From an uncultured Bacteroidales bacterium (GTDB lineage: Bacteria; Bacteroidota; Bacteroidia; Bacteroidales; UBA932): a stretch of 16,453 nucleotides of DNA. The translations under genes and the position numbers were made by a program. The DNA is taken from the NCBI GenBank assembly GCA_946062035.1, contig CAMGTS010000007.1:1-16453 (forward strand). Direction: 5' to 3'. This document shows, piece after piece, positions 1-16,453 of this stretch. Within the stretch, counting starts at the first letter, position 1, and each line of letters opens with the position of its first letter. The notes under the pieces were generated by a model. It saw only the letters and a program-made list of their open reading frames with translations, had not been told where the DNA came from and made no database searches.

Positions 1-6
1 AACCAA

Positions 7-1975: not shown

Positions 1976-1977
1976 AA

Positions 1978-2244: not shown

Positions 2245-2406
2245 CAGTCTAAAAATATTATTCCTTTAGTGCAAAAATACATTGATTTCTATTTACTGCA
2301 AAAGTCAATATTTTATTAAATAAGAGAACAGCCAAGAGATGGGCAATGTTGGATAATTCCTAAATTAATTGTAGTCTTGAACTCGTTTTTTCAAACAGAC
2401 ACAAAT
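2245..2406. other. AT-rich divergent intergenic region
   Basis: This 162-bp gap separates the leftward exporter operon from the rightward ADP-ribosylglycohydrolase gene. It contains the leftward promoter at 2272-2302. No rightward match to TTTG-N19-TAnnTTTG was found for the downstream gene, which may use a weak or regulated promoter. No convincing hairpin or small gene was seen. Confidence 0.6.
2272..2302 (-). promoter_or_regulatory. Bacteroidota-type promoter of the LysO exporter operon
   Basis: Read on the minus strand, TTTG (2299-2302) is followed by exactly 19 nt and then TATTTTTG (2272-2279). This is a full match to the Bacteroidota primary sigma consensus TTTG-N19-TAnnTTTG. Transcription would start near 2265, about 20 nt before the small-subunit ATG at 2244. 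Confidence 0.8.
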
Positions 2407-3582
2407 ATGTTAGGGGCAATTATCGGTGACATAGTAGGTAGTCGTTGGGAGTTCAATCCTACAAATGACTACAACTTTAAACTCTTTTCTGACAAGAACA
2501 GCTATACTGATGACACCATCTGTACAGTTGCAGTAGCAGACGCATTGCTGCATGATTCTGATGATTTCGGGGCATACATTCACAAATGGTGTCGCAAGTA
2601 TCCTCATCCAATGGGCGGTTATGGAGGTAGTTTCGTTAAATGGATAATGAGCGATAATCCGCAACCATACGGCAGTTATGGAAATGGTTCAGCAATGCGT
2701 GTAAGTCCTATAGGGTGGTGGCTTTCCTACGATATATGGGAAACGTCCGCAAAGTCGGCCGCCTGTACGCATAACCACGAAGAAGGCATTAGAGGGGCAC
2801 AAGCTGTAGTATGGGCTATGGCTGATGCAAAAGAGCTTCGAAATACCTATGGTAACAAACTAACTAGTGAGATATTATTAAAGAAAGGTCTGGCTCATGG
2901 AGTTGGTATTTATGAGGAATTTCCACAAAACTTTAAAATTAACCTCAATAAATGTCGGAACAGATTTGATGTAACATGCCAAGGTACAGTACCTGTAGCA
3001 TTATGGATAGTGCTTCATAGCAAGAGTTTTGAGGATGCAATCCGTCAGGCAGTCAGCCTTGGGGCAGATGCAGACACACTTGGTGCCATCGTTGGCAGTA
3101 TTGCAGAACGATTGTGGGGCATACCAGAGTGGATGAAGAAAAAAGCTCTATCGTATTTACCACGTGATATTAAAAACGTTGTAAAGGAATTTCATAAACG
3201 TACTATAAGACTTCGTCAATTGTCAAAACGTTGCCAATACTATGTCTTTGATGATTTTGTCCATCTCAGCGATGAAGACAAAGAAGCCTGTGATATAGAA
3301 CGAGAATGGACTCACTACTTGGCTCGAAGCTATGCACATGCCAAATTGATCAAGGAAGAAATGACAAAGCGTTTTCCCATAGCAGATTGGCAGAATGTAG
3401 CTGACGATTATGATCTTCCAGTATCTCTTGTAGGTACTATCGCAAAACATATCTTAACTCCAAAACATAAATCATTGAAGAGCGTAATTAAGTTTCTTGA
3501 AGCCCATTATTCAATAAGGAAACCACTAACTGCCAAGAAGAAAGAAAAGAAGGAAAAATTCCTAACTTTAAACCGCATATAA
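2407..3582 (+). CDS. ADP-ribosylglycohydrolase (DraG/ARH)-family protein with C-terminal extension
   Basis: The DraG/ARH family removes ADP-ribose from proteins or small molecules using two divalent metal ions. The N-terminal domain (about 1-250) shows MLGAIIGDIVGSRWEF, the metal-binding TDDT at 34-37, GNGSAM at 92-97, HNHEEGIRGA at 122-131, and the second metal motif GADADT at 219-224 (Asp221, Asp223, Thr224). The more usual form is GGDTDT, so the acidic pair and the Thr are kept. Residues 260-391 form a charged helical extension, with HLSDEDKE and a Lys-rich tail, that I do not recognise. I chose ATG 2407 because family members begin at MxGAIxGD. A TTG at 2377 would add ten unlikely residues. 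Base content is lower in GC than the neighbours (60 of 180 bases in three sampled lines, about 33%), which suggests later acquisition. It ends 10 bp before the peptidase gene. The physiological substrate is unknown. Confidence 0.88.
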   Translation: MLGAIIGDIVGSRWEFNPTNDYNFKLFSDKNSYTDDTICTVAVADALLHDSDDFGAYIHKWCRKYPHPMGGYGGSFVKWIMSDNPQPYGSYGNGSAMRVSPIGWWLSYDIWETSAKSAACTHNHEEGIRGAQAVVWAMADAKELRNTYGNKLTSEILLKKGLAHGVGIYEEFPQNFKINLNKCRNRFDVTCQGTVPVALWIVLHSKSFEDAIRQAVSLGADADTLGAIVGSIAERLWGIPEWMKKKALSYLPRDIKNVVKEFHKRTIRLRQLSKRCQYYVFDDFVHLSDEDKEACDIEREWTHYLARSYAHAKLIKEEMTKRFPIADWQNVADDYDLPVSLVGTIAKHILTPKHKSLKSVIKFLEAHYSIRKPLTAKKKEKKEKFLTLNRI

Positions 3583-3592
3583 ATCATTCACT

Positions 3593-5227
3593 ATGAACTA
3601 CACCAAAACTATCAGGAGAGCGATGGGCGGTATCGCCTTGATTTCGGCTCTCTTATTCGCGACAAATTCATACTCACAACCATTTGCGGATCATTACAAT
3701 TATTCGGATGAAGACGGTCACTCCGAGAGCTGCACATCCATTGTAGTCAGCAAGGGGGCGAGTTCCGACGGTTCGGTAATGACAGCCCACTCTTGCGATT
3801 CAAACTACAGGACATGGCTGACTATCGAACCTCCTAAGACATATAAAGACGGAAAAGATATTATCAAATGGGGGCTTCTGCATACGGAAGAGCCTTACGA
3901 TATACGCAGGGTATCTGAGAAAGGGAGTATCCCTGCAAAGGCGGGAGAAACTTTCAGATTTCTGAACGTAGCGTATCCGTGTCTCAACGAAAAACAGCTT
4001 GCCATTGGAGAGACCACTACTGAAGGCAAGAGAGAATTGGTCAACGATAAAGGGCTTTTCCTGATAGAGGAATTGGAAAGAGTCGCTTTAGAAAGATGCG
4101 ACAACGCCCGTGATGCGATCAGGCTGATGGGTTCACTTGCGGAAGAATATGGTTATGGAGATTGGGGAGAGTGCCTGACAGTCATTGACAAAAACGAAGC
4201 GTGGTTTTTCGAAATCTACGGAACAGGCAAGAGCGGCAAGAAACCGGGAGCAATGTGGGTGGCGCAGAGAATCCCTGAGGGAGAAGTAGGTGTTTCCGCC
4301 AATGTTCCGAAAATAGGCGTGGTCGAGTTCGACAAACCTGAAAAGTTCATGTACTCCAAAGACCTGAAAGAGAGAGCTAAAGAACTTAAGATTTGGGATG
4401 GTAAGAGTGAATTCAAGTTCTATCCTATGGTTACAACCTACGGTAAGAACTTCATGTGGCGAGAGTATATGGTTCTTAGCAAACTTGCTCCGAGTCTCGG
4501 CCTTAAATATACTGACGATGAGATGCCGTTCTCAGTAGTCCCGGATGAAAAAGTCACCCCTGAGAGAATGTTCGCTTTCTACAGAGAGACCTTTGCCGGA
4601 ACAGAATTCGACCCTATAAAAGACTTGAAGATTGCTGTCAAAAGACGCAATTCTGATATAACCGACACTATCGCTCCGATAAGTCCTTTCATGCCGAACA
4701 ATGTCCGCACACTTCTAAATACTTTGAAACCTGATGTTGCTCCGAGAATCAGGACAATCGCGGTTATCCAGTGCTCATACTCTCATGTATTGAGACTCCG
4801 CAACTGGCTTCCGGACGAAATAGGAGGTGTCGCTTATTTCTCTTTCGACAATCCTGCCCAAAGCCCGAGAATCCCTATTTATGCAGGGCAGACTGAGCTT
4901 CCTGACGGGTTTGGAGTCTGCGGGCAGCACCGCTACCGTAAGGATGCCGCTATATGGGATTTCAGAGAGACCAACCGCCTCGCTACAGTATGTTGGGACA
5001 GATCTGAAAAGCTTATCAATGAAGCTGTTGCAAGCTATGAAAAAGAAATGATGGAGCAGACGGCAGAACTCGAAAAGAAAGCCGCCGAACTTATCAAAGA
5101 AGGTAAAAAGGATGAAGCCGTAAAGATGCTCAACGACTACTGCAAGAAAACTTCAGCGTCTCAGAGATACACATGGCGTGAAGATCTCAAGGCAAAGATC
5201 ATGATGTATCTTGTCAGAAGTCTGTAA
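3593..5227 (+). CDS. Secreted C69-family dipeptidase (N-terminal nucleophile)
   Basis: C69 peptidases (PepD family) are Ntn hydrolases that cleave dipeptides or small peptides with a cysteine freed by autoprocessing. The 544-residue product begins with a signal peptide: basic MNYTKTIRR, hydrophobic 10-23, and likely cleavage after SYS at residue 28. The first Cys after it, Cys47 in ESCTSIVVSKGASSDGS, matches the family's catalytic CT(S/T) start of the mature chain, so residues 29-46 would be a short propeptide. Other typical blocks are GLLHTEEPY, AIGETTT, YGYGDWGECLTVID and EAWFFEIYGTG. A charged helical stretch (about 480-530) ends the protein. Location would be periplasm or outer surface, with a role in peptide scavenging. 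The start follows the preceding stop by 10 bp, so read-through from the ADP-ribosylglycohydrolase gene is likely. No separate promoter was recognised. Confidence 0.9.
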   Translation: MNYTKTIRRAMGGIALISALLFATNSYSQPFADHYNYSDEDGHSESCTSIVVSKGASSDGSVMTAHSCDSNYRTWLTIEPPKTYKDGKDIIKWGLLHTEEPYDIRRVSEKGSIPAKAGETFRFLNVAYPCLNEKQLAIGETTTEGKRELVNDKGLFLIEELERVALERCDNARDAIRLMGSLAEEYGYGDWGECLTVIDKNEAWFFEIYGTGKSGKKPGAMWVAQRIPEGEVGVSANVPKIGVVEFDKPEKFMYSKDLKERAKELKIWDGKSEFKFYPMVTTYGKNFMWREYMVLSKLAPSLGLKYTDDEMPFSVVPDEKVTPERMFAFYRETFAGTEFDPIKDLKIAVKRRNSDITDTIAPISPFMPNNVRTLLNTLKPDVAPRIRTIAVIQCSYSHVLRLRNWLPDEIGGVAYFSFDNPAQSPRIPIYAGQTELPDGFGVCGQHRYRKDAAIWDFRETNRLATVCWDRSEKLINEAVASYEKEMMEQTAELEKKAAELIKEGKKDEAVKMLNDYCKKTSASQRYTWREDLKAKIMMYLVRSL

Positions 5228-5530
5228 CTGGCGTCGTATTTACGGTGCTGTTAAGTATAATGATGAGTGGAGAGCCTGCATAATAGAGACTAAATAAACT
5301 TCAAAGAATCAATATCAGTTGTAATGCAAATAAGTATTACTATTGCTATCGGTTACATAATCGGAGGAAAACGATAGAAACTGATTTTTTCCACACCAGA
5401 AGACAACATCTTTGACCTTTTGTGAAGTGTTGATCTCAATGATTGACTCTGCAACCTGTTAAATTTTACCGAATATGCTTGCCGTAAACCTTTTTATAGG
5501 TATTTTTACACGGCATAAGCAACCTCAGAA
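5228..5530. other. Intergenic region upstream of carA
   Basis: This 303-bp stretch has no credible gene. CTATCG (5346-5351) and CGATAG (5372-5377) could form a 6-bp hairpin with a 20-nt loop, and a run of six T follows at 5385-5390. That is a weak candidate for the terminator of the peptidase transcript. The last 55 bases hold the inverted repeat and the possible carA promoter described separately. No known riboswitch or pyrimidine attenuator was recognised. Confidence 0.5.
5477..5520 (+). promoter_or_regulatory. Possible carA promoter overlapping an imperfect inverted repeat
   Basis: GCTTGCCGT (5477-5485) is repeated inverted as ACGGCATAAGC (5510-5520), with a 2-nt bulge, and ends 10 nt before the carA ATG. 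Within it, CTTG (5478-5481), 19 nt and TATTTTTA (5501-5508) match the Bacteroidota promoter with one mismatch in each box. The repeat would thus frame the promoter like an operator, or form a hairpin in a longer leader. Evidence is only the pattern. Confidence 0.35.
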
Positions 5531-6604
5531 ATGAAGCAATCAGATAAAATAAAACTTGTATTGGAGAATGGCCTTGAGTTTCAAGGCTATTCTTTTGGAT
5601 ACCGCTCCGAAGCGGATGGAGAAGTAGTTTTCAATACCGCGATGGTAGGATATCCCGAAAGCCTTACCGACCCTTCCTATTCAGGACAGATTCTCTGCAT
5701 CACCTATCCCATCATAGGCAACTACGGAATACCGGGAGACAAGTTGGAAAATGGCGTATCGAAAGTGTTCGAATCAGAGAAAATTCATGTAAGAGCACTT
5801 GTAATTTCTTACTATTCAGAAGACTACAGCCATTGGGATTCTGTCATGTCATTGGACAGCTGGCTGAAAGAGCATAAGATTCCTGGGATATACGGAGTCG
5901 ATACCCGCGAACTTACAAAAGTCCTGAGGGAAAAAGGCGCTATGCTCGGAAGGATTATCCCTGCCGACAAAGAATGCGTTTTGCCTATTCCCGACCCTAA
6001 TCTTGACAATCAGGTCGCCATCACGAGCTGCAAAGAAGTCGTAAGGTACGGCAGCGGAAAGAAAAAGGTAGTATTGGTCGATTGCGGAGTCAAGAACAAT
6101 ATCCTCAGATGTCTGATAAGAAGGAATGTAGAAGTCATCAGAGTTCCGTGGAACTATGATTTCAATCAATTGGACTGGGACGGACTGTTTATCTCCAACG
6201 GCCCGGGCAATCCTGCGCTCTGTGATGAAGCCGTTGAGCATCTTAAGGTTGCGCTTCAAGGGGATAAGCCTGTGTTCGGAATATGCATGGGCAACCAGCT
6301 TATGGCAAGAGCCGCAGGAGCCAAGACATTCAAACTCAAATACGGCCATCGCAGCCACAATCAGCCTGTGCGTCTGATTGGTACGGAAAAATGCTTTATC
6401 ACCTCACAGAACCACGGATTTGCGGTTGATGACAGCACTCTCGGAGCAGATTGGGAGCCTCTGTTCGTCAATATGAACGACGGAACAAATGAGGGCATAA
6501 AACATAAGACAAAACCGTTCTTCTCAGCCCAGTTCCACCCTGAGGCGACAAGCGGCCCTACAGACACAGAGTTTTTATTCGATAAGTTCGTCAATCTACT
6601 TTAG
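5531..6604 (+). CDS. carA: Carbamoyl phosphate synthase small (glutaminase) subunit
   Basis: CarA hydrolyses glutamine and channels ammonia to CarB for carbamoyl phosphate, the shared precursor of pyrimidines and arginine. Its length of 357 residues is normal. The N-terminal CPSase small-chain domain has FNTAMVGYPESLTDPSY (34-50), TYPIIGNYG and GIYGVDTRELT (119-129). The C-terminal class I glutaminase domain has ISNGPGNP (221-228), the nucleophile Cys252 in GICMGNQ, and His336 and Glu338 in AQFHPEA, so the triad is complete. GNQ replaces the more common GHQ after the nucleophile. That His is not part of the triad, so activity is expected. The gene sits 4 bp before carB, as expected for a two-gene operon. 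The start ATG matches family N-termini and follows the possible promoter at 5477-5520. Confidence 0.97.
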   Translation: MKQSDKIKLVLENGLEFQGYSFGYRSEADGEVVFNTAMVGYPESLTDPSYSGQILCITYPIIGNYGIPGDKLENGVSKVFESEKIHVRALVISYYSEDYSHWDSVMSLDSWLKEHKIPGIYGVDTRELTKVLREKGAMLGRIIPADKECVLPIPDPNLDNQVAITSCKEVVRYGSGKKKVVLVDCGVKNNILRCLIRRNVEVIRVPWNYDFNQLDWDGLFISNGPGNPALCDEAVEHLKVALQGDKPVFGICMGNQLMARAAGAKTFKLKYGHRSHNQPVRLIGTEKCFITSQNHGFAVDDSTLGADWEPLFVNMNDGTNEGIKHKTKPFFSAQFHPEATSGPTDTEFLFDKFVNLL

Positions 6605-6608
6605 ACCT

Positions 6609-9600
6609 ATGAAAGAGAACAACAAGATTTCAAAAGTACTTATACTCGGTTCAGGCGCATTGAAAATCGGTGAGGCCGGAGAATTCGACTATTCAGGTTC
6701 CCAGGCGCTTAAAGCGATGAAAGAGGAGCATATCGAAACTATTCTCATTAACCCTAACATCGCTACCGTACAGACCTCAGAAGGTATAGCGGATAAGATA
6801 TACTTCCTCCCGGTAACTCCCTATTTTGTCGAGAAAGTCATTAAAAAAGAGAATCCACAGGGCATTCTCCTTTCGTTCGGAGGTCAGACAGCCCTCAACT
6901 GCGGAGTCGAGCTATACAAGAGCGGAGTCCTAAAAAAATACGGCGTTGATGTCCTCGGAACTCCGGTACAGGCGATCATGGATACGGAAGACCGTGAACT
7001 CTTCGTAAAAAAGTTGGATGAAATCGATGTCAAGACCATCAAAAGCCATGCGGTGGAAAACGCCGAAGACGCTCTGAAAGCGGCCAATGAGCTCGGCTAC
7101 CCTGTTATTGTCAGGGCCGCATACGCCTTAGGAGGATTAGGCAGCGGATTCTGCAATAATGATGACGAGCTGAAGAAGCTTGTAGCCAAGGCATTCACGT
7201 TCTCGCCGCAAGTTCTTGTCGAGAAATCCCTGAAAGGTTGGAAAGAGATTGAATATGAAGTTGTCCGCGACCGTTTCGATAACTGCATCACAGTCTGCAA
7301 CATGGAGAATTTCGATCCTCTCGGCATCCATACCGGGGAGAGTATCGTTGTCGCTCCTTCTCAGACACTTACCAACTATGAGTATTATCTCCTCAGAGAG
7401 ATTGCGATAAAGATTGTAAGACACATCGGCATTGTAGGAGAGTGCAACGTACAGTACGCATTCGACCCGCAGAGCGAAGATTACAGAGTTATCGAGGTAA
7501 ATGCCAGACTTTCAAGGTCATCGGCTCTTGCCTCAAAAGCTACGGGATATCCTTTGGCTTTTGTTGCCGCCAAACTTGGTCTGGGCTACGGACTCTTTGA
7601 TCTTAAGAATTCAGTGACAAAGACAACACCTGCATTCTTTGAGCCGGCGTTGGACTACATAGTCTGCAAGATTCCTCGTTGGGACCTGAGCAAATTCCAT
7701 GGCGTAAGCCGACTCATCGGCAGCAGCATGAAATCCGTAGGAGAGGTCATGGCTATAGGAAGAAGTTTCGAAGAGGCTATTCAGAAAGGACTAAGAATGA
7801 TAGGCCGAGGCGCACACGGATTCGTAGCGAACAAGGAGATGCATGTTGACAATATAGAAAAAGAGCTCTCCGAACCTACTGACAGCCGTATATTCGTGAT
7901 AGCCAAGGCAATGGAAGCGGGCTACACTGTAGATCAGATTCATGCCGCTACAAAAATCGACCGTTGGTTCCTCGACAAGCTACAGAACATTTGCAGAATC
8001 TCTAAGGATATTGAGAAGTGCGGTTCATTAGAGGAGATGGGAAAAGACCTTTTGACGACAGCCAAGCAATGCGGCTTCTCCGATTTCCAGATTGGCCGCC
8101 TCATCTTCAAAGACAAGGAAGATCCTGACACCTATACTCCTATTGTACGCGAATACAGAAAGAGCCTGAATGTCCTTCCTGTTGTAAAACAGATAGACAC
8201 ATTGGCGGCTGAATTCCCCGCAAAGACCAACTACCTCTACCTGACATATAACGGGACGGCTCATGATATAGACTACGAAAAAGACAAAAAGTCTATAATT
8301 GTCATAGGTTCAGGAGCATACAGAATCGGAAGTTCGGTAGAATTCGACTGGTGCAGCGTCAACTGTCTTAAGACTATCCAGAACTGCGGATACAGAGGGA
8401 TCATGATAAACTACAATCCTGAGACAGTCTCGACAGACTACGATATGTGCGACCGCCTCTATTTCGATGAACTTACTTTCGAAAGGGTCATGGATATCTA
8501 CGACTTGGAGACACCTCACGGAGTTGTAGTATCAGTTGGAGGACAAATTCCTAACAATCTGGCTATGAGGCTGAATGATGCAAACGTAAACATCCTCGGC
8601 ACATCAGCCAAATCAATAGACAACGCAGAAGACCGCCACAAGTTTTCCGCAATGCTCGACAAGTTAGACATCAATCAGCCGAGATGGAGCGAGCTTACCA
8701 CACTCGACGACATCAACAAATTCGTCGGAAAAGTCGGATTCCCTGTACTTGTAAGACCGTCATACGTACTTTCAGGTGCGGCTATGAACGTATGTTCTAA
8801 TGATGACGAACTCAAAGAGTTCCTGCAGCTTGCGACGGAAGTATCTCAGAAACATCCGGTAGTCGTAAGCGAATTTATTCAGCACGCAAAAGAGATTGAG
8901 TTCGACGCTGTCGCATGCAAAGGTGAAATCATAGCCTATGCGATTTCTGAGCACATAGAATTTGCCGGTGTCCACTCAGGCGATGCGACTATTCAATTCC
9001 CTCCGCAAAAACTTTACGTTGAGACCGTACGCAGAATCAAGAAGATTTCCCGCAAGATCGCCGAGGCTTTGAAAATCAGCGGACCGTTCAACATCCAGTT
9101 CATGGCGAAAGAGAATGATATTCTCGTGATTGAGTGCAACCTCAGAGCTTCAAGAAGTTTTCCGTTTGTTTCCAAAGTACTGAAAGTCAACCTTATAGAA
9201 TTAGCGACCAAGGTGATGATAGGAGAACCTGTCAAACCTTTGGACAAGAGTGCGTTCGACCTGGATTATGTAGGCATCAAGGCTTCCCAGTTCTCATTCT
9301 CTCGTCTTTTGAAAGCGGACCCTGTCCTCGGTGTCGACATGGCATCGACGGGTGAAGTAGGATGTATAGGTGATGATACGGCGGAGGCTATTTTGAAGTC
9401 AATGCTATCGGTAGGATATTCAATACCGAAGAAAGGTATCCTCCTCTCGACGGGAGACGGCAAGCAGAAGGCGGAAATGCTTGATGCGTGCAGCGAACTT
9501 GCGAAGAAAGGATATAAGCTGTATGCGACGGGTGGTACATTCAGATACCTGAAAGACAATAATATAGAGACGACTGAAGTCTATTGGCCTGATGAGGCCG

Positions 9601-9836
9601 GAAAATCTCCGCAAGCCATCGACCTTATTAAGAACAAGGAGATAGATATGGTCGTCAACATTCCTAAGAACCTCTCTAAGAGCGAGTTGGACAATGGGTA
9701 CAAAGTCAGGAGAGCTTCCGTTGACTTCAATATCCAGTTGCTGACCAACACCCGCCTTGCAAGCGCATTCATAAATGCGTTCTGCTCACTCGATCAGGAC
9801 GACATACAGATAAAGAGTTGGGATCAGTATAAATAA
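6609..9836 (+). CDS. carB: Carbamoyl phosphate synthase large subunit
   Basis: CarB makes carbamoyl phosphate from bicarbonate, two ATP and the ammonia delivered by CarA. The 1075-residue protein has the full duplicated layout. The first half (about 1-400) begins with ILGSGALKIGEAGEFDYSG and includes LSFGGQTALNCG (88-99), an ATP-grasp domain with RAAYALGGLGSG (169-180) and the IEVNARLSRSSALASKATG block (295-313). An oligomerisation domain follows. The second half starts near 562 with VIGSGAYRIGSSVEFDWC and has VSVGGQIPNNLA and VRPSYVLSGAAM. From about 940 comes an MGS-like regulatory domain (KKGILLSTGDG, LYATGGTFRYL), the site of UMP/ornithine control in E. coli. It is therefore the long bacterial form with the allosteric domain present. 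It is transcribed with carA, and 25 bp separate it from the antiporter gene downstream. Confidence 0.97.
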   Translation: MKENNKISKVLILGSGALKIGEAGEFDYSGSQALKAMKEEHIETILINPNIATVQTSEGIADKIYFLPVTPYFVEKVIKKENPQGILLSFGGQTALNCGVELYKSGVLKKYGVDVLGTPVQAIMDTEDRELFVKKLDEIDVKTIKSHAVENAEDALKAANELGYPVIVRAAYALGGLGSGFCNNDDELKKLVAKAFTFSPQVLVEKSLKGWKEIEYEVVRDRFDNCITVCNMENFDPLGIHTGESIVVAPSQTLTNYEYYLLREIAIKIVRHIGIVGECNVQYAFDPQSEDYRVIEVNARLSRSSALASKATGYPLAFVAAKLGLGYGLFDLKNSVTKTTPAFFEPALDYIVCKIPRWDLSKFHGVSRLIGSSMKSVGEVMAIGRSFEEAIQKGLRMIGRGAHGFVANKEMHVDNIEKELSEPTDSRIFVIAKAMEAGYTVDQIHAATKIDRWFLDKLQNICRISKDIEKCGSLEEMGKDLLTTAKQCGFSDFQIGRLIFKDKEDPDTYTPIVREYRKSLNVLPVVKQIDTLAAEFPAKTNYLYLTYNGTAHDIDYEKDKKSIIVIGSGAYRIGSSVEFDWCSVNCLKTIQNCGYRGIMINYNPETVSTDYDMCDRLYFDELTFERVMDIYDLETPHGVVVSVGGQIPNNLAMRLNDANVNILGTSAKSIDNAEDRHKFSAMLDKLDINQPRWSELTTLDDINKFVGKVGFPVLVRPSYVLSGAAMNVCSNDDELKEFLQLATEVSQKHPVVVSEFIQHAKEIEFDAVACKGEIIAYAISEHIEFAGVHSGDATIQFPPQKLYVETVRRIKKISRKIAEALKISGPFNIQFMAKENDILVIECNLRASRSFPFVSKVLKVNLIELATKVMIGEPVKPLDKSAFDLDYVGIKASQFSFSRLLKADPVLGVDMASTGEVGCIGDDTAEAILKSMLSVGYSIPKKGILLSTGDGKQKAEMLDACSELAKKGYKLYATGGTFRYLKDNNIETTEVYWPDEAGKSPQAIDLIKNKEIDMVVNIPKNLSKSELDNGYKVRRASVDFNIQLLTNTRLASAFINAFCSLDQDDIQIKSWDQYK

Positions 9837-9861
9837 TTGGCACACAAAGTTTTAGTACACT

Positions 9862-10851
9862 ATGCTGATTAATTTTCTGAGGCTGGCCGTCGGACTTATG
9901 ACAGTAATTGCCGGAGCGGAGTTCCTCGTAAAAGGAGCTACCGCTTTGGCGAAAAGATTCAGGCTCTCGGATATGGTTATAGGTATGACCATTGTCGCCA
10001 TAGGTACGTCTACACCCGAACTTGTTGTGAGTTTTATAGGTGCGGCGAGTGGAAATGCGGATATTGCGGTCGGTAATGTCATAGGTTCGAACATTTGCAA
10101 TATCTTGCTGATACTCGGCATTACAGCACTGATATACCCGTTGCCGCTTACGAAAAGCAATATCAGGATTGACATCCCTTTCGTAATAATCTCCACGCTA
10201 CTGCTCTGTATATTAGCTTGCGATACCCTCATCGGTACAGGAAACCTTAATTCAATAGGCAGAACCGACGGTGCGATACTTCTGTTCTTCTTCGCCGCAT
10301 TCATGACCTATTCATTCAAGACAGCTAAAAAGGGAGAAATTCAACAAAACGTTTCGCCTCAGGAAAGATCTGAAGAACAGGCTAATAGCGACAAAAGACA
10401 GAACGTTTTCGTATCGATTCTACTGATTGTACTGGGACTTGTCTCACTTGTTTTCGGAGGAGATTTCATGGTAAATCAGGCGATAATCATTGCTAAGGCA
10501 TTTGGGGTCAGTGATATAGTAATAGCAGCGACTGTCGTGGCTATAGGCACAAGCCTTCCGGAACTTGCGACCTCTGTCGTAGCGGCCTGCAAGAAAAACG
10601 TAGGTCTCGCTCTTGGCAACGTAGTAGGTTCTAATGTCATCAATATTCTTCTTATACTCGGCGGTAGTGCGATTATCACACCTCTCGGTCTTGCAAATGT
10701 GAGCTATATTAACCTGTTGATATTGTGCCTCTCAGCCCTGTTTATGATGGCATGTGCGTTTCTCTTCAAGAAGAGGATGATAGACAGAGCAGAAGCGGTA
10801 ATATTTCTGGTCACCTACGCCGCATACATATACTTTTTAATTAGGGCTTAA
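9862..10851 (+). CDS. CaCA-family Na+/Ca2+ (K+-dependent type) antiporter
   Basis: This 329-residue inner-membrane protein belongs to the Ca2+:cation antiporter family, similar to E. coli YrbG and the archaeal NCX_Mj. Two alpha repeats are clear. Repeat 1 has AIGTSTPELVVSF (46-58, Glu53) and GNVIGSNICNILLILG (71-86). Repeat 2 has AIGTSLPELATS (227-238, Glu234) and GNVVGSNVINILLILG (252-267). The paired Glu and Asn/Ser residues form the ion sites in the family. About ten membrane segments are split into two halves by a polar cytosolic loop at 152-182 (KKGEIQ...SDKRQN). The gene could be read through from carB across a 25-bp gap, although no functional link to pyrimidine synthesis is evident. 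The true ions are not fixed by sequence. Confidence 0.92.
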   Translation: MLINFLRLAVGLMTVIAGAEFLVKGATALAKRFRLSDMVIGMTIVAIGTSTPELVVSFIGAASGNADIAVGNVIGSNICNILLILGITALIYPLPLTKSNIRIDIPFVIISTLLLCILACDTLIGTGNLNSIGRTDGAILLFFFAAFMTYSFKTAKKGEIQQNVSPQERSEEQANSDKRQNVFVSILLIVLGLVSLVFGGDFMVNQAIIIAKAFGVSDIVIAATVVAIGTSLPELATSVVAACKKNVGLALGNVVGSNVINILLILGGSAIITPLGLANVSYINLLILCLSALFMMACAFLFKKRMIDRAEAVIFLVTYAAYIYFLIRA

Positions 10852-10855
10852 CATT

Positions 10856-10887
10856 TTTGCCGTTTTGCGATATATAAGGTACATTTG
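10856..10887 (+). promoter_or_regulatory. Bacteroidota-type promoter of the marR-hdr operon
   Basis: TTTG (10856-10859), a 20-nt spacer and TACATTTG (10880-10887) match the TTTG/TAnnTTTG consensus with both boxes perfect and the spacer one nt longer than the usual 19. Transcription would start near 10894, about 30 nt before the MarR ATG at 10924. No other good promoter was seen up to the end of the Hdr genes, so this one probably drives them all. Confidence 0.7.
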
Positions 10888-10900
10888 AACCATGATATAT

Positions 10901-10916
10901 AGTAAAATAGTTTACT
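10901..10916. promoter_or_regulatory. Palindrome AGTAAA-N4-TTTACT, candidate MarR operator
   Basis: Perfect 6-bp inverted arms flank ATAG. The site lies between the predicted transcription start and the ATG of the MarR gene, where binding would block transcription. MarR dimers usually bind 16-20 bp palindromes near their own promoter. The role as operator is inferred from position and symmetry. Confidence 0.45.
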
Positions 10917-10923
10917 GTTAAAT

Positions 10924-11400
10924 ATGATACTTAATAAGCAAGTCGGAGTGTTTTTGAATCTTGTTCACAACAAGTTCAAGCAGTATGTCACTGAAATCTT
11001 TGAAGAACAAGGGTTTAATATCACTCCCGAGCAATTTATAGTGATGGATACCCTTTGGGATGAAGGGACTCTTACCCAACAGCAGATAGCGAATATCGTA
11101 ATGAAAGACAAGAACTCCATCGTCAAACTCGTTGACGGTCTGGAAAGACGTGACTTGGTCCGTAGGGTAAGCAATCCAAATGACAGGAGGCAGAATCTTA
11201 TAGAGGTTACCGAATATGCGAAAAAAATCCGTGACAGGATTACTCAGCTTGCCATGGATGCGGTAGACCGCATTATCAACGGCATCCCAAAAGAGCAGAT
11301 GAAGACATTCATCATCGTACTCTCCAAGATGGCGGACAATATGAATAATGACGTTAATCTGTTGGAGCTTGCGAATAAGTTTCCGACAAAAGAGAGATAA
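10924..11400 (+). CDS. MarR-family transcriptional regulator
   Basis: This 158-residue protein has the MarR winged helix-turn-helix fold. It starts with a dimerisation helix (1-30), then FNITPEQFIVMDTLW, the HTH region TLTQQQIANIVMKDKNSIVKLVDGLE (about 49-74), and a wing with the family's NPNDRRQNLIEVTE (about 84-97), where the Asp-Arg-Arg is typical. A C-terminal helix (about 100-145) completes the dimer interface. MarR proteins usually act as repressors released by small ligands or by oxidation. This one has no cysteine, so a thiol-switch mechanism in the style of OhrR is excluded. Its stop is 10 bp before the HdrC1 start, which indicates a shared transcript. It most likely controls itself and the Hdr-like genes through the palindrome in its leader. 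Confidence 0.92.
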   Translation: MILNKQVGVFLNLVHNKFKQYVTEIFEEQGFNITPEQFIVMDTLWDEGTLTQQQIANIVMKDKNSIVKLVDGLERRDLVRRVSNPNDRRQNLIEVTEYAKKIRDRITQLAMDAVDRIINGIPKEQMKTFIIVLSKMADNMNNDVNLLELANKFPTKER

Positions 11401-11410
11401 GACTGAAAGG

Positions 11411-12106
11411 ATGGAAAAGTTATATGACAGACTGATGAAGGACTACAGGCTACGCGAAGGGCTTAACGCCTGCATCAATTGCGGAACCTGCACAGCTATA
11501 TGTCCTGCCGCAGAATTCTACAGATACGATCCGAGAAGAATCGTTGACATTGTGCAAAGCAAGGATGAGGCTGAAATAGAGAAACTTCTCAAAAGCGATG
11601 TAATCTGGTACTGTGGAGAATGCATGAGCTGTGTTACCCGCTGTCCGAGAAAAAACGCTCCCGGGCTTGTAATAATGGCGCTTAGGTCTCTCTCGATTGA
11701 TACGGGATTTTTTATGGAATCCGAGAAGGGACGGCAGATGTATGTCCTTTGCAAAGATCTGTGCGGCAATGTATTGAATTATGGCTATTGCATATATCCC
11801 CGTGAGTTTCACTACAAAGGACACGAAGAGGCCGGTACAGTATGGGAGTGGCAGGAAAAGCATTTGGAAGATGTATATGAAAGATTAGGAGCCAACTTCG
11901 ATGGAGAAGGTCCGGGCGCATTGAGAAAGATTCCAGACTCCGACCTTGCGGAGCTGAAAAGGATTTTTGACATCACCGGCGGTACGGAAAGGATGGAAAA
12001 GGTGAAGGAAGCCGCAATGAAAAAGGCGGAAGAGTTGGGACTGAGCGAGGAAGAATATTTCAACAAAGTTTATACTGAGTGCAAAGGAGCACATTTCAAT
12101 CACTAA
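11411..12106 (+). CDS. HdrC-like iron-sulfur subunit (HdrC1), two 4Fe-4S clusters
   Basis: The product has 231 residues. The N-terminal third is HdrC-like with two cubane motifs: Cys21-xx-Cys24-xx-Cys27-xxx-Cys31 (CINCGTCTAIC) and Cys68-xx-Cys71-xx-Cys74-xxx-Cys78 (CGECMSCVTRC). These would pass electrons between HdrA and HdrB. Residues about 90-231 are a longer tail without cysteine clusters, rich in aromatic and charged residues (EEAGTVWEWQEKHLEDVYERLG). HdrC1 of sHdr complexes is also larger than methanogen HdrC, which suits that comparison. I chose ATG 11411, preceded by GAAAGG, because the Hdr-like fold starts there. An in-frame start at 11348 would lie inside the MarR gene and add 21 unrelated residues. 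The next gene starts 3 nt after the stop. Confidence 0.88.
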   Translation: MEKLYDRLMKDYRLREGLNACINCGTCTAICPAAEFYRYDPRRIVDIVQSKDEAEIEKLLKSDVIWYCGECMSCVTRCPRKNAPGLVIMALRSLSIDTGFFMESEKGRQMYVLCKDLCGNVLNYGYCIYPREFHYKGHEEAGTVWEWQEKHLEDVYERLGANFDGEGPGALRKIPDSDLAELKRIFDITGGTERMEKVKEAAMKKAEELGLSEEEYFNKVYTECKGAHFNH

Positions 12107-12109
12107 GAG

Positions 12110-13174
12110 ATGATTTACGAAGGGAAACAGAAAATATGGAGCGACTATCAGAAGGAGATTCCTGACGACCACTACTTCTATGTCAGAAGCTGTATCAGGC
12201 AGTCATTTTTTCCTGCCTCAGAAGCCGCGTTCCTGCATATAACAAGAAACATTCTTAATAAGGATATATTTGAGACAGAGCATCATACGACTTGCGGAGG
12301 TATTGCCTACCACTCCGATGCGATACCGCAGGAGACGGCGATGACCATTATCGCAAGACAGTTCGCCCTGATGAAAAAATACGGGTATGAAAACTACGTA
12401 TGTTCATGCATCACATCTTTCGGACTCTACTGCGAGACGATGGAGACTTGGAGAGAGTTTCCTGATCTTAAAGAGAAGATTGCGGAAAACCTATGGAAAA
12501 GCTGCAAATTAGAGTTCGCAGTCCCGAAGTTCCTCGTCCATGCGAGCGATATGATTTACAAATACAGGAATCAGATTGCAGCACATGCGAAGTTCAAACT
12601 TGTCGACCATAAGACCGGCAAACCGCTTAAGGTTGTCGAGCATATCGGGTGTCACTATTCGAAGATGTTCCCGTCCAAAGGGGTAGGAGGAGCCGAATAT
12701 CCATACGTTCTGGCAGGTATGATAGAAGCGTGGGGCGGTGAGGTCGTGGACTATCCTGAAAGGAGACACTGTTGTGGTTTCGGTTTCAGGCAGTATTTTG
12801 TCAAAAGCAACAGAGGCTACTCATTGTCAAATACTTACAAGAAATTCGAGAGTATGGAGCCTTACGAACCGGATCTGATAATAACCAACTGCCCAGGATG
12901 CCCTTACTTTATGGACAGATGGCAGTATGTCATAGCCGAGAGCGAAGGCAAGACTTACGGAAAGAACGGGCATGGAATCCCTGTCATGACATACGAAGAG
13001 GTAGCGGGACTTGTACTCGGATTCGACCCATGGGATCTTGGGCTTCAGACCCACCAGATAGGCCCTGAGCCGCTGTTGGATAAAATGGGGATACCATATA
13101 ATCCTGAAGAGAAATATAAAGGGAAGAACGGAAAAGATTTAGGTCAACCAAGACAACTTGATTGTATACGATGA
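12110..13174 (+). CDS. HdrB-like CCG-domain subunit (HdrB1) with degenerate first CCG motif
   Basis: HdrB proteins bind unusual noncubane [4Fe-4S] clusters through repeated CCG domains and, in methanogens, reduce the CoM-S-S-CoB disulfide. This 354-residue protein has one complete motif in its second half: Cys181, then Cys221-Cys222-Gly, then Cys261-xx-Cys264. The first half keeps only parts: Cys28, TCGG at 61-64 (one Cys, Cys62, where two are expected), then Cys98 and Cys100 as CSC in place of CxxC, and Cys108. The first cluster is thus probably altered or of a different type. The C-terminal 45 residues are polar (KYKGKNGKDLG). The stop TGA overlaps the ATG of the HdrA gene (ATGA), which indicates translational coupling. 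The family is secure. The substrate is unknown, since no coenzyme M/B pathway is expected in this lineage. Confidence 0.88.
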   Translation: MIYEGKQKIWSDYQKEIPDDHYFYVRSCIRQSFFPASEAAFLHITRNILNKDIFETEHHTTCGGIAYHSDAIPQETAMTIIARQFALMKKYGYENYVCSCITSFGLYCETMETWREFPDLKEKIAENLWKSCKLEFAVPKFLVHASDMIYKYRNQIAAHAKFKLVDHKTGKPLKVVEHIGCHYSKMFPSKGVGGAEYPYVLAGMIEAWGGEVVDYPERRHCCGFGFRQYFVKSNRGYSLSNTYKKFESMEPYEPDLIITNCPGCPYFMDRWQYVIAESEGKTYGKNGHGIPVMTYEEVAGLVLGFDPWDLGLQTHQIGPEPLLDKMGIPYNPEEKYKGKNGKDLGQPRQLDCIR

Positions 13175-14184
13175 AAAAGAACGTACTGATAATCGGAGGC
13201 GGACCTGCCGGAATGGAGGCCGCACATCAGATAAACAAGCTCGGACACAATGTAATTCTTATCGAGAAAGAGCATGATTTAGGCGGACATCTCGCTAAAT
13301 GGGACAGACTCTTCCCTACCGGGCGCAACGCCCGTGAAGTTCTCGACACATTGAAAGAGAACATGAAAGGGATAAATTGTTTTACGGACACAGAGGTAAA
13401 ATCGATAAACATCCTCAAGGAGTCGTACAATGTCATCCTTTCAAACGGCATTACGATTCTTGCGGACGCTGTGCTGATTTCAAGCGGTTTCGACCTGTTC
13501 GACGCCCACAAGAAAGAGGAATATGGCTATGGAATTTACGACCATGTGATAACCAACGCTGACCTCGAAAAATACTATAAGACGCACAATGACGAGCGAA
13601 TCAAGAACCCTAAACGTATCGGTTTTGTGCATTGCGTAGGTTCGAGAGACGAGAAGGTCGGCAACATCGCATGTTCAAAAGTATGTTGTGCGACCGCAGT
13701 CAAACAGGCTTGCGAAATCAAGGAAGAGTTTAAAGATGCGGAAGTGATATGCTTCTATATGGATTTGAGAATGTTCGGAAGAGGATATGAAGACCTCTAT
13801 CTGAAAGCTCAGAAAGAATACGGAATCAGATTCATAAGAGGCAGGGTGTCAGAGGTTTCTGAAAATATAGACAAAAGCCTGCAGATAAAGGCGGAAGACA
13901 CCTTGTCAAGCAAGCCGATGAAAGTCTCTCTTGACCTGCTTGTACTTATGGCAGGAATGAGACCGTCCAAGAGTGGCAATGACATTGGCAAGATGCTGGA
14001 ACTCAGTACTATGGAAGACGGTTTCTTCAACACCAAAGACGATTTCAACAATCTTCAACAGAGTAAACGCCCGGGTGTTTTCTACGCCGGTGTCGCTACA
14101 GGTCCTAAAACTCTGCCGGAAACATTGAACGAGGCAAGGAGCGCCGCATTGGAGATTCATAATTATTTAGCTGAAACATTATGA
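13171..14184 (+). CDS. Short HdrA-like FAD/iron-sulfur subunit
   Basis: The product has 337 residues. It has a thioredoxin-reductase-like FAD fold with the dinucleotide motif IGGGPAGMEAA at 8-18 and an acidic strand end (IEKEHDLGG, 31-39). The HdrA-specific cluster segment is HCVGSRDEKVGNIACSKVCC, with Cys155, Cys168, Cys172, Cys173 and then Cys181. The HdrA hallmark DLRMFGRGYEDLY lies at 198-210, and the C-terminal FAD motif GVFYAGVATGPKTLPET at 302-318. It lacks the N-terminal domain and C-terminal ferredoxin inserts of methanogen HdrA, so it resembles QmoA or the HdrA of sHdr complexes. In the complex it should link the two HdrC proteins. ATG 13171 overlaps the previous stop as ATGA and gives the normal N-terminus, so I prefer it to the TTG at 13162. 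Its own stop overlaps the next start the same way. Confidence 0.9.
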   Translation: MKKNVLIIGGGPAGMEAAHQINKLGHNVILIEKEHDLGGHLAKWDRLFPTGRNAREVLDTLKENMKGINCFTDTEVKSINILKESYNVILSNGITILADAVLISSGFDLFDAHKKEEYGYGIYDHVITNADLEKYYKTHNDERIKNPKRIGFVHCVGSRDEKVGNIACSKVCCATAVKQACEIKEEFKDAEVICFYMDLRMFGRGYEDLYLKAQKEYGIRFIRGRVSEVSENIDKSLQIKAEDTLSSKPMKVSLDLLVLMAGMRPSKSGNDIGKMLELSTMEDGFFNTKDDFNNLQQSKRPGVFYAGVATGPKTLPETLNEARSAALEIHNYLAETL

Positions 14185-14510
14185 TTGACTTCGGTTTCAA
14201 ATTGAGTCCGAGTTCAAGAATAGATCTTGACAAAGTCGACCGTACGCTTCTAAAGCGCATTGCGGATATGGAGCCGGATTTTAAGAAATGTATGGCATGT
14301 GGAAGTTGCAGCGCTACGTGCAGTGCAGGGGCGTACAAGGCGACAAGCATGAGACGTGCGATTTTGGCACTTCAAAACGGTTTGACAAACAAGGCTTTAG
14401 AGGAGTTAGAGAGTTGCATGTTGTGCGGTAAGTGTACTCTTGTCTGCCCTCGGGGCATCAACACAAGACATCTTATTCTGTCCATCCAAAAAATCTGTGG
14501 AGAAAAATGA
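14181..14510 (+). CDS. Small HdrC-like iron-sulfur subunit (HdrC2), two 4Fe-4S clusters
   Basis: This 109-residue protein is little more than two cubane motifs: Cys37-xx-Cys40-xx-Cys43-xxx-Cys47 (CMACGSCSATC) and Cys79-xx-Cys82-xx-Cys85-xxx-Cys89 (CMLCGKCTLVC), each followed by a helix. It lacks the Pro that usually follows the first motif's last Cys (CSAG). Size and spacing match HdrC of methanogens. It should carry electrons between the HdrA flavin and the CCG domains of the membrane protein encoded next. Both ends are ATGA overlaps with neighbouring genes, the tightest form of coupling, which suggests equal amounts in one complex. Confidence 0.88.
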   Translation: MIDFGFKLSPSSRIDLDKVDRTLLKRIADMEPDFKKCMACGSCSATCSAGAYKATSMRRAILALQNGLTNKALEELESCMLCGKCTLVCPRGINTRHLILSIQKICGEK

Positions 14511-16420
14511 TTCTGACTACATTAACATCTGACATATCGGCGCAAGCTATTACGACAAGTGAGGTAATAGACAGAATTCCAAGTGGATACAGCAACTTTG
14601 TCATTCCGTTTGTCTGCGGGATAGTATTTATCCTCGTCTATCTTTTTATAGGCATGATAAGGATTCTGTATCACCTGACGAAAGAGGACAGAAGGCAGCT
14701 GCTGATCTCACTATTCACACCGAGGATAATATGGAAAAACATAAAGGATATTTTCTGCGACTGCCTGATACACACAAAAATATGGAAACGGAAACCATTA
14801 CTTGGATATATGCACTCGGCGATCGCCTTCGGGTGGTTCATGCTGATTGTGCTCGGTCATATCGAAGTGTGGCTTTTTGTGCCGAGGAGTATGAGTCAGC
14901 TCTCCGCAGGCGCGCTCTACTACCCTATTTTCTACCGTTTCTTTGTTTGGGTCAATCCAGAACATGTCTCTCTTCAGGGCAGTCTGTTCTTCTTTCTGAT
15001 GGACTTTTTCCTACTGTATGTCCTTTCAGGCATCGGTATAGCGATGTTCAAGAGAATAAGGTCTATAGCTCTCGGAATGCGGCACACGACAAAGCCGTCC
15101 CTCGCTGACCGTGTAGCGCTATATAGTCTATGGGCGATATTTCCGTTAAGACTTCTTGCCGAGGGCTTTACAGCGGATCTAAGCGGAGGTAGCTTTCTTA
15201 CCAAGCCGGTAAATATGCTCTTCCACTCATTCTTGGGCAATAGCCTGAACTTTATGCCTACTTGGTGGGCGTACTCGATCGCACTCGGCCTGTTCTTCTT
15301 CGCGATGCCGTTCAGCAGGTATATGCACATCCTCACAGAGCCGCTGCTTATCTTGTTCCGCAATGCAGGATTATGCGTCCGCAAACCGAGAAAAGGGTTT
15401 GCAGAGGCGGAAATCTATGCATGCTCAAGTTGCGGACTTTGCCTGGATGCCTGCCCGATGAATGTAAGCAAGAAAAACCTGAAATACTCATCTGTCTATT
15501 TCATAAGATTCCTTAGAAGACACAACAAGAAAAAGGTCAAGGCGATCGCCGACAAATGTCTCATGTGCGGAAAATGCAAGACACTATGCCCTGTCGGAAT
15601 AGACGCCCCGGCAATAAGACGCGCATACAGAGCATTGGACAACAACAAGCTGAAATTCAACTATGACTTTCAGAATGAGGCTCATATCGGGAGAATCGGT
15701 GAATCCGGCACAGACGGCAACGGAAGCGGAAACGGCAACAAGGTCATGTACTTCGCAGGTTGCATGACTCATCTTACTCCTGTGATAATCAATTCATTGA
15801 AGAAAATTTTCGAGGCTGCCGGAGAAAAATATATCATAGCGGACGAAGAGAGAGGGCTTTGCTGTGGCCGTCCTCTGATACTTGCAGGGAAATTCGATGC
15901 GGCTAAAAAACTTATCGAAAAAAATACAACAATGATAGAGGAATCCGGCTGCAAACGCCTGATACTCTCCTGCCCTATATGCTACAAAGTGTTCAAGGAA
16001 GAATACCATCTCAAGGGTATAGAAGTCATCAACTATACCCAATACATCGACGGGCTGATAAAGGAAGGAAAGATAAAAGTCAACAATACAGAGAAGAGCC
16101 TTGTTTATCACGACCCTTGCGATTTAGGCAGAGGATCAGGCATTTACGATGAACCGAGAGAGGTCGTAAAATCTGTCGGCAAACTCAAGGAAGCAGCCAA
16201 AAACAGAGATGAAAGCATTTGTTGCGGAGGCAGCCTTGGAAGTCTGACACTCGACAGCAAAGACAGAGGACATATAACCGAAGATTCGTTGAGAAATCTT
16301 CTTGCCGACAATCCTGAAGAGATTGTAACAGCATGCCCGCTATGTCTGAAAACGTATAATGCTGCATCCACAATTCCTGTAAAGGACATTGCAGAAATTG
16401 TGAGCGAAAATCTTACATAA
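14507..16420 (+). CDS. Fused membrane cytochrome-like/4Fe-4S/CCG protein (HdrB2- or DsrMK-like, EMO/EtfD architecture)
   Basis: The 637-residue protein has three parts. Residues 30-275 form a membrane domain with about five segments (near 31-54, 100-124, 155-180, 203-220 and 250-270), like NarI or DsrM. Candidate heme b ligands are His103, His118 and His274. Residues 306-361 hold two cubane motifs (Cys306/309/312/316 and Cys351/354/357/361). Residues 415-615 hold two complete CCG motifs: Cys419, Cys452-Cys453-Gly, Cys489-xx-Cys492; and Cys538, Cys572-Cys573-Gly, Cys610-xx-Cys613. A Gly/Asn-rich linker (399-411) precedes the CCG part. Such an order is known from DsrM/DsrK as two proteins and from ETF:menaquinone oxidoreductases as one, so exchange with menaquinone is likely. 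ATG 14507 forms an ATGA overlap with HdrC2. A longer frame from 14432 would only translate HdrC2 out of frame. It is the last gene of the operon inside the window. Confidence 0.88.
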   Translation: MILTTLTSDISAQAITTSEVIDRIPSGYSNFVIPFVCGIVFILVYLFIGMIRILYHLTKEDRRQLLISLFTPRIIWKNIKDIFCDCLIHTKIWKRKPLLGYMHSAIAFGWFMLIVLGHIEVWLFVPRSMSQLSAGALYYPIFYRFFVWVNPEHVSLQGSLFFFLMDFFLLYVLSGIGIAMFKRIRSIALGMRHTTKPSLADRVALYSLWAIFPLRLLAEGFTADLSGGSFLTKPVNMLFHSFLGNSLNFMPTWWAYSIALGLFFFAMPFSRYMHILTEPLLILFRNAGLCVRKPRKGFAEAEIYACSSCGLCLDACPMNVSKKNLKYSSVYFIRFLRRHNKKKVKAIADKCLMCGKCKTLCPVGIDAPAIRRAYRALDNNKLKFNYDFQNEAHIGRIGESGTDGNGSGNGNKVMYFAGCMTHLTPVIINSLKKIFEAAGEKYIIADEERGLCCGRPLILAGKFDAAKKLIEKNTTMIEESGCKRLILSCPICYKVFKEEYHLKGIEVINYTQYIDGLIKEGKIKVNNTEKSLVYHDPCDLGRGSGIYDEPREVVKSVGKLKEAAKNRDESICCGGSLGSLTLDSKDRGHITEDSLRNLLADNPEEIVTACPLCLKTYNAASTIPVKDIAEIVSENLT

Positions 16421-16453
16421 TGAATAAGTAATTATTAAAATATTTGGAAATGG

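Follow-up and report, generated by a model that had tools for sequence, protein, structure and literature searches.

A widespread Hdr-type complex of Bacteroidales, probably membrane-bound, and its possible role as a sulfite source for sulfonolipid synthesis

Introduction

What purpose might an operon resembling those of sulfur-oxidizing heterodisulfide reductase (Hdr)-like systems serve in a Bacteroidales bacterium? The question is raised by the window analyzed here, a stretch of 16,453 nucleotides (nt) from an uncultured Bacteroidales bacterium (GCA_946062035.1, contig CAMGTS010000007.1, positions 1-16,453, forward strand). A preliminary description of this DNA had read the five genes at its downstream end as an Hdr-like operon, ordered HdrC1, HdrB1, short HdrA, HdrC2 and a fusion of membrane and CCG domains (here memB2), and the open reading frames (ORFs), domains and order were all borne out by our analysis. 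We somewhat favor the answer that these genes encode a menaquinone-reducing, membrane-bound, sHdr-like complex that oxidizes sulfide-level sulfur to sulfite for the synthesis of cysteate and sulfonolipids. In its general form, that Bacteroidales without sulfate assimilation use a membrane-bound sHdr-type enzyme for the anaerobic six-electron oxidation of sulfide to sulfite with menaquinone, for lipid synthesis and not for energy, the proposal has in our judgment an even chance of being correct.

Results

A five-gene operon conserved across Bacteroidales

The five-gene complex is widespread in rumen and gut Bacteroidales. The same genes stand in the same order in 18/20 loci fetched from relatives, in all 13 same-genus loci of that set and in one further locus of the genus (L188), in 76 of the 80 named Bacteroidales loci (a contig end truncates the other four) and in 37/46 loci sampled order-wide. 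These sets overlap, the order-wide loci including six of the 20 fetched ones and six of the 13 genus loci being also among the named. Such conservation is far beyond chance, and the synteny that the preliminary description had proposed to look for is clearly present. A marR gene precedes the operon on the same strand in 13/13 same-genus loci from the fetched set, and was not found at L188; a two-component system lies near the operon in seven order-wide loci, directly upstream and on the same strand in L041, L154, L168 and L184. In genomes of one family (L040 and L179), hdrB1-hdrA alone is retained at the locus.

Of 61 genomes, the window's own and those of relatives, 42 had HdrB1, among them 34 of the 37 same-genus genomes in that search, two as fragments; at order level it was present in 79/247 genomes and 65/174 genera (E <= 1e-30). 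One database held 2671 homologous proteins at E <= 0.001, while among 296 phylum genomes, few of them from the same order, HdrB1 identity never exceeded 32% outside the window's own genome. The close named relatives are Bacteroidales metagenome-assembled genomes (MAGs) whose record titles point mostly to rumen or gut, and the nearest relatives found outside the order are cyanobacterial (HdrB 40%, HdrA 46% identity), together with one protein named deltaproteobacterial. In a sulfide-tolerant Phormidium, hdrA2B2C2 genes have been noted and a role in electron bifurcation suggested, according to an excerpt of PMC8002359.

Linkage to cysteate synthase and sulfonolipid genes

The contig ends 33 bases past memB2, which truncates our view of the operon, and the preliminary description had advised looking past position 16453 for lbpA, rhodanese or TusA genes. 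In relatives the next gene is none of these, but cysteate synthase. It directly follows memB2 in 14/14 same-genus loci with long flanks (the 13 fetched and L188), with 40-114 bp between the two matches, and its TIGR03844 scores reach 465.5 bits in L150 and 442.6 bits in L146 (cut-off 324.9). Across the genus, cysteate synthase scores above this cut-off in 37/39 genomes, the exceptions being G008 and the window's own truncated MAG, a 74% complete genome in which no cysteate synthase was found elsewhere. In the wider named set the gene is directly downstream in 32 of the 72 loci with a visible downstream end, and a SulP-family transporter gene comes after it in L150 and several other loci. According to excerpts of two papers, cysteate synthase acts on phosphoserine, eliminating phosphate and adding sulfite (PMC12713407), and the archaeal-type enzyme is used by Alistipes and Odoribacter (PMC10191378).

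Further genes point towards sulfonolipids. In L188 a single strand carries, in a row, an acyltransferase, a short-chain dehydrogenase/reductase (SDR), the five Hdr genes from hdrC1 to memB2 and cysteate synthase; its acyltransferase matches the L182 copy at 58% and its SDR the L177 copy at 62%, and by its gene content the row is a sulfonolipid operon. In L177, L180 and L182, from three other families, a second type of cysteate-synthase-like enzyme dependent on pyridoxal phosphate lies beside the operon together with an acyltransferase, accompanied by an SDR in L177 and L180. For the two scanned members of this second type the top-scoring models were those of threonine synthase, at scores below cut-off, so that their function is presumed. 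The L182 acyltransferase scores 636 bits with 7u7h (SulA by its paper), 596 with the cysteate-C-fatty acyltransferase 28eh and 237 with serine palmitoyltransferase. A SulA-type acyltransferase 60% identical to it is encoded in the window's own genome, and at a position occupied by alanine in serine palmitoyltransferase it carries a lysine; by position count this is Lys281, reported as diagnostic for SulA (PMC9304779). SulA-type copies occur in 37/39 genus genomes, two as fragments, and are absent from G005 and G034.

The main texts of PMC11211663, PMC9304779 and PMC10191378 do not contain the word "sulfite", and none of the matches listed from open-access PMC full text connected an Hdr complex with sulfonolipids or with the supply of sulfite in Bacteroidota. 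Judged by title and abstract, the open-access papers in which "heterodisulfide reductase" appears along with "cysteate synthase" deal with methanogens or related archaea.

Other sulfur genes occur at some loci. A methionine-gamma-lyase-like gene is directly downstream in L037 and L153, and upstream in L133 (37% identity), where no cysteate synthase follows. Among the 22 largest clusters of neighboring genes, no downstream sulfur gene recurred at the 40 named loci that lack a downstream cysteate synthase. At L037 (377-7934) the five-gene operon is preceded, at a distance of 1.3 kb, by a QmoABC/DsrE-like cluster, whose QmoA-like protein of 916 amino acids (aa) has an inserted GltD-type domain.

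Co-occurrence with cysteate synthase in the absence of cysH

If the complex supplies sulfite, it should accompany cysteate synthase only where sulfate assimilation cannot do so. The stratification by cysH was conceived after the linkage had been seen and before cysH was searched for, and the thresholds were of our own choosing. Of 247 Bacteroidales genomes scored, 79 counted as Hdr carriers (HdrB1 at E <= 1e-30) and 157 as cysH-positive (E <= 1e-12, 142 of them above cut-off). The cysteate synthase set comprised 65 genomes above cut-off and 46 weaker ones at 94-145 bits, ten of 121 matches having been dropped, one as truncated (G440) and nine at 58-85 bits. Among the 90 genomes without cysH, 20 had both Hdr and cysteate synthase, 6 Hdr only, 8 cysteate synthase only and 56 neither (odds ratio, OR, 23; p 7e-9).

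Within this stratum the association was seen under every variant tried (counts in the same order). Keeping all 121 cysteate synthase matches gave 21/5/8/56 (p 9e-10), counting cysH only above cut-off (105 negative genomes) 20/11/15/59 (OR 7.2, p 3e-5), a strict cysteate synthase set with the original cysH 12/14/6/58 (p 2e-4), and strict thresholds on both 12/19/7/67 (p 0.0014); the strict variants thus weaken the p value. With one genome per family (55 families) the mean table was 10.9/4.8/7.5/31.9, with a median p of 8e-4 and a 95th percentile of 0.005, and the median p was 0.029 when the strict cysteate synthase set alone was used. The 75 cysH-negative genomes at least 90% complete, unfiltered for contamination, gave 18/4/7/46 (p 2e-8). 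The six exceptions with Hdr only include G000, which is the truncated MAG of the window, and G047, which has a fragment of this HdrB1 only.

Subunits of the operon

The five ORFs are tightly packed on one strand behind the marR gene (Table 1), with ATGA overlaps at the last three junctions (hdrB1/hdrA, hdrA/hdrC2 and hdrC2/memB2). The ORF list starts hdrA at an upstream TTG (13162, 340 aa), and the ATG given in Table 1 yields 337 aa. Elsewhere in the window, at 1340-2244 on the minus strand, two adjacent small ORFs may be a split LysO-type lysine exporter gene.

Table 1. Positions of the operon, its domains and its flanks in the window (aa, amino acids; nt, nucleotides).
Feature	Coordinates	Strand	Remarks
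marR-family regulator, 158 aa	10924..11400	+	10 nt before hdrC1
hdrC1-like dicluster ferredoxin subunit, 231 aa	11411..12106	+	HdrC model 95 bits, below its cut-off
hdrB1-like CCG subunit, 354 aa	12110..13174	+	3 nt after hdrC1
short hdrA-like flavin adenine dinucleotide (FAD) subunit, 337 aa	13171..14184	+	ATG 13171 overlaps hdrB1 stop
hdrC2-like dicluster ferredoxin subunit, 109 aa	14181..14510	+	ATGA overlap with hdrA
membrane B2 subunit (memB2), 637 aa	14507..16420	+	ATGA overlap with hdrC2
hydrophobic domain of B2 subunit	14597..15334	+	invariant His 89, 103, 118, 274
two complete CCG motifs of B2 subunit	15743..16345	+	C419/C452-C453/C489/C492; C538/C572-C573/C610/C613
contig end after memB2	16421..16453		33 bases

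Pfam and NCBIfam models recognize dicluster ferredoxins, CCG domains and an HdrA core, with scores for the Hdr equivalogs well below the curated cut-offs. HdrA aligns solely to the middle of full-length HdrA models, far below their curated cut-offs, and its residues 6-331 match residues 2-335 of the 349-aa chain 6tjr, which we take to be the sHdrA of Hyphomicrobium. In HdrB1 the C-terminal CCG motif is complete (C181, C221, C222, C261, C264) and the N-terminal one degenerate, retaining C28, C62 and C100 alone in a pattern of [T/S]C and CxTS.

The B2 chain joins a hydrophobic N-terminal domain, in which hydropathy picks out four strongly hydrophobic regions, to a dicluster ferredoxin and two CCG domains. 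Both CCG motifs, the eight ferredoxin cysteines and the four histidines of Table 1 are invariant in 18/18 aligned rows. The best match of the subunit in the PDB is EtfD (9ojn), with which it has the chain architecture in common. By this likeness it may bind heme and menaquinone, and the complex is probably membrane-bound.

Kinship and a two-gene paralogue

The HdrB tree, flagged by the software for long branches, sets the sHdr rows together with the Bacteroidales, cyanobacterial, deltaproteobacterial and Acidithiobacillus plasmid rows apart from seven other HdrB-type rows (100/100). Less its sHdr and Acidithiobacillus rows this group receives 84/81, and support for the Bacteroidales rows by themselves is 94/97. 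For HdrA, the tree places the window's family, with a cyanobacterial row inside it, in one clade (95/99) that adjoins sHdrA (84/88) and stands apart from the rows labelled Qmo. By these trees, which the preliminary description had asked for, the complex forms a separate clade, sister to sHdr. With its subunits outside the Hdr, Qmo and sHdr rows compared, it also answers to what that description had supposed, a distinct, conserved and probably membrane-bound Hdr-type complex. The N-terminal [T/S]C and CxTS pattern of HdrB1 is common to the sHdrB1 of L138 and L140 and to the cyanobacterial proteins; the deltaproteobacterial row has CC and CxTS, and the HdrB of L052 is without the pattern.

A second type comprises C1-B1 pairs only (L151, L153, L156, L164, L173) and forms a clade of its own in the HdrB tree (100/100). 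Its neighbors include a methionine-gamma-lyase-like and a CoA-disulfide-reductase-like gene in L153, and thioredoxins and a thioredoxin reductase in L173 (by eye). In L151, L153 and L156 the pairs lie near NifX-like, DUF134-like or MinD-like genes (partly by eye), as well as CGGC-like genes, a setting that by eye presumably resembles the orange-protein operons of sulfate reducers. At L164 (140-16861) the type-2 hdrC1/hdrB1 pair and a CRP/Fnr-like regulator stand beside two TusA-like, DsrE-like, rhodanese-like, YeeE-type transporter and Qmo-like genes (partly by eye).

Lipoate proteins and sulfur carriers

The preliminary description rightly saw no lipoate gene in the window. The genus has one strong GcvH-like match per genome in 38/39 genomes, beside menA in the two genomes read. 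At L190 (4537-4911) and L191 (1175-1552) this GcvH-like gene adjoins menA-like and ruvA-like genes; neither gcvT nor gcvP was seen next to it, and it may encode a lipoate carrier. TusA matches occur in 5/39 genus genomes, all within frames of 723-837 aa; L192 (3541-5982), of the same genus, encodes an 813-aa protein that by eye fuses a CoA-disulfide-reductase-like domain to rhodanese, TusA and DsrE domains.

Discussion

A proposed route from sulfide to sulfonolipid

Taking the five subunits to assemble as one complex, we infer its substrate, direction, product, cofactors and electron path as follows. Sulfide-level sulfur, whether sulfide itself or a protein or thiol persulfide, would bind where HdrB1 and the two CCG domains of B2 have their noncubane [4Fe-4S] sites, and would there be oxidized stepwise to sulfite. 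Electrons would pass from the CCG clusters and the FAD of the short HdrA to ferredoxin-type clusters in C1, C2 and B2, and on through a b-type heme of B2 to menaquinone. In the window's genus, cysteate synthase, the product of the next gene, could use the sulfite at once to form cysteate, which a SulA-type enzyme would condense with an acyl chain to begin the sulfonolipid. In an anaerobe living among sulfide, the complex would in this way replace CysH-dependent sulfate assimilation as the source of sulfite.

The sulfite/sulfide couple lies at about -116 mV and menaquinone at about -75 mV, so that oxidation of sulfide to sulfite by menaquinone would be mildly favorable, with cysteate synthase and fumarate respiration providing pull. 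The preliminary description had linked menaquinone to an unspecified redox couple. Its menaquinone link remains likely; for the couple, the adjacency of cysteate synthase in 14/14 same-genus loci leads us to propose sulfide-level sulfur and sulfite. That description had also argued that the bacterium should not be a sulfur oxidizer, which probably stands as far as respiration is concerned, while the adjacency and the cysH-dependent co-occurrence indicate that the organism is probably an assimilatory sulfite maker.

Weighing the proposal

Several observations count against this proposal. In the 157 genomes with cysH the counts of both, Hdr only, cysteate synthase only and neither are 20/33/63/41 (OR 0.39, p 0.007; at other thresholds OR 0.48-0.92, p 0.05-1.0), and over all 247 genomes the unstratified association is not significant (OR 1.4, p 0.22). 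No cysteate synthase was detected in 39 of the 79 Hdr carriers, so other uses of the complex must exist, and the 33 of these carriers that have cysH imply that it also serves something else. Conversely, eight genomes have cysteate synthase and neither cysH nor Hdr (15 under the strict cysH cut-off); in one of them, G530 (L189), no obvious sulfite source lies beside cysteate synthase. A directly downstream cysteate synthase was seen in just 2/37 order-wide loci, and the two scanned members of the weaker cysteate synthase set fall below every curated cut-off shown. A linked lipoate protein of the sHdr type is absent from the window and was not noticed among the flank genes listed or the largest clusters, and stand-alone TusA was not found in the 39 genus genomes.

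These same carriers without detected cysteate synthase lend weight to a menaquinone-linked thiol/disulfide or persulfide oxidoreductase, forming a disulfide and no sulfite, that would serve thiol homeostasis or electron disposal. Also in its favor are the complete Hdr-type CCG motifs and the type-2 pairs near thioredoxin-like and thioredoxin-reductase-like genes (by eye) or a CoA-disulfide-reductase-like gene; we nevertheless think it unlikely, since it predicts neither the tight linkage to cysteate synthase nor a co-occurrence limited to genomes without cysH. Sulfite for cysteate synthase would also come from a complex running in reverse, in which menaquinol drives the reductive cleavage of a sulfur oxyanion, for example of thiosulfate to sulfite and sulfide; the SulP-family transporter gene after cysteate synthase in several loci speaks for this reading. 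Reduction of thiosulfate by menaquinol is strongly uphill, however, and no recurring rhodanese, Phs-type or molybdopterin gene was noticed at type-1 operons among the neighbors listed or the 22 largest clusters, so that we give reversal quite a low probability.

The architecture and best PDB match of the membrane subunit would suit a general electron conduit like EtfD, carrying electrons from HdrA or a partner flavoprotein to menaquinone and linked to cysteate synthase by accident. We judge this very unlikely: EtfD has lost the Hdr-type cysteines, which are complete at both sites in 18/18 rows here, and no genes for electron-transferring flavoprotein (ETF) were noticed among the neighbors listed or the 22 largest clusters. 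Finally, cysteate synthase begins the synthesis of coenzyme M (CoM) in some methanogens, according to an excerpt of PMC12713407, and one could imagine that bacteria turn cysteate into a CoM-like thiol and that this Hdr reduces the corresponding heterodisulfide. Such a role seems highly improbable, the partner genes being SulA-type acyltransferases and SDRs; a ComDE-like gene was not noticed beside the operon, where no search was aimed at ComDE.

If the sulfite-supplying role that we favor is correct, the operon offers a concrete answer to where strict anaerobes of the sulfide-rich gut obtain sulfite for cysteate, and thereby for sulfonolipids, bioactive lipids found in gut Bacteroidota, Alistipes and Odoribacter among them. 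Hdr-type sulfur chemistry, known from energy metabolism, would then reach into lipid biosynthesis, and a large family that otherwise bears just the name "heterodisulfide reductase" would gain a likely function.

Comparison with known systems

The window's complex most resembles the sHdr system of the Hyphomicrobium type in its C1-B1-A-C2-B2 order, its degenerate N-terminal CCG motif in B1, its sister position in both trees, relatives linked to sulfur genes and a short HdrA without N-terminal and ferredoxin extensions. In Hyphomicrobium, sHdr releases sulfite, according to an excerpt of PMC12423496. For the production of sulfite from protein-bound sulfane sulfur, another sHdr trait, the evidence on the window's complex is genetic linkage. 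The window differs in having no Hyp gene between A and C2, as the preliminary description had observed (in L138 a 251-aa ORF occupies that place), no linked lipoate-binding protein gene (lbpA) and a B2 fused to a membrane domain; its HdrB1 also has a complete CPGC in the C-terminal CCG motif, where the sHdrB1 of L138 and L140 has DTGC. Membership of sHdr proper was rejected on the missing Hyp and linked lbpA and on subunits that fall outside the sHdr clade. The sHdr clusters at L138 (4358-12595) and L140 (5457-11627), from a Bacteroidota family outside Bacteroidales, encode C2 and B2 as a single 428-aa fusion and are adjoined by Etf-like genes (by eye); L138 also has GcvH-like and DsrE genes.

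Two other Hdr-type assignments were rejected: HdrABC of the methanogen or FlxABCD type, given the short HdrA with its core-only alignment and an HdrB1 with one complete CCG motif, and QmoABC, given a single HdrA that stands apart from the rows labelled Qmo. HdrDE of Methanosarcina recalls B2 in combining a membrane cytochrome with an HdrD-type catalytic part, which in the window are one chain; HdrDE is not known to have HdrA, HdrB1 or HdrC1 partners. EtfD, the mycobacterial ETF:menaquinone oxidoreductase (9ojn), likewise unites a membrane domain, two [4Fe-4S] clusters and two CCG domains in one chain, and by analogy the reduction of menaquinone is likely common to both. The linear [3Fe-4S] cluster and His-completed noncubane cluster of EtfD are described as non-catalytic in an excerpt of PMC13083937. 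In contrast to these Cys-Thr/His-completed sites, the CCG motifs of the window are complete and Hdr-like in 18/18 rows and its neighbors are HdrA, HdrB and HdrC genes, on which grounds membership of EtfD was rejected.

The cyanobacterial operon on a plasmid of Picosynechococcus PCC 7003 (L136), to which the nearest relatives found outside Bacteroidales belong, runs C1-B1-A-C2-B2-flavoprotein; unlike the window it has a soluble B2 (290 aa), followed by the flavoprotein, whose best NCBIfam match is sulfide:quinone reductase (SQR) at 83 bits against a cut-off of 525. In Alistipes and Odoribacter, the sulfonolipid pathway has an archaeal-type cysteate synthase and SulA, the same kinds of enzyme that adjoin this operon or share its genomes; none of the literature matches listed connects that pathway with an Hdr complex.

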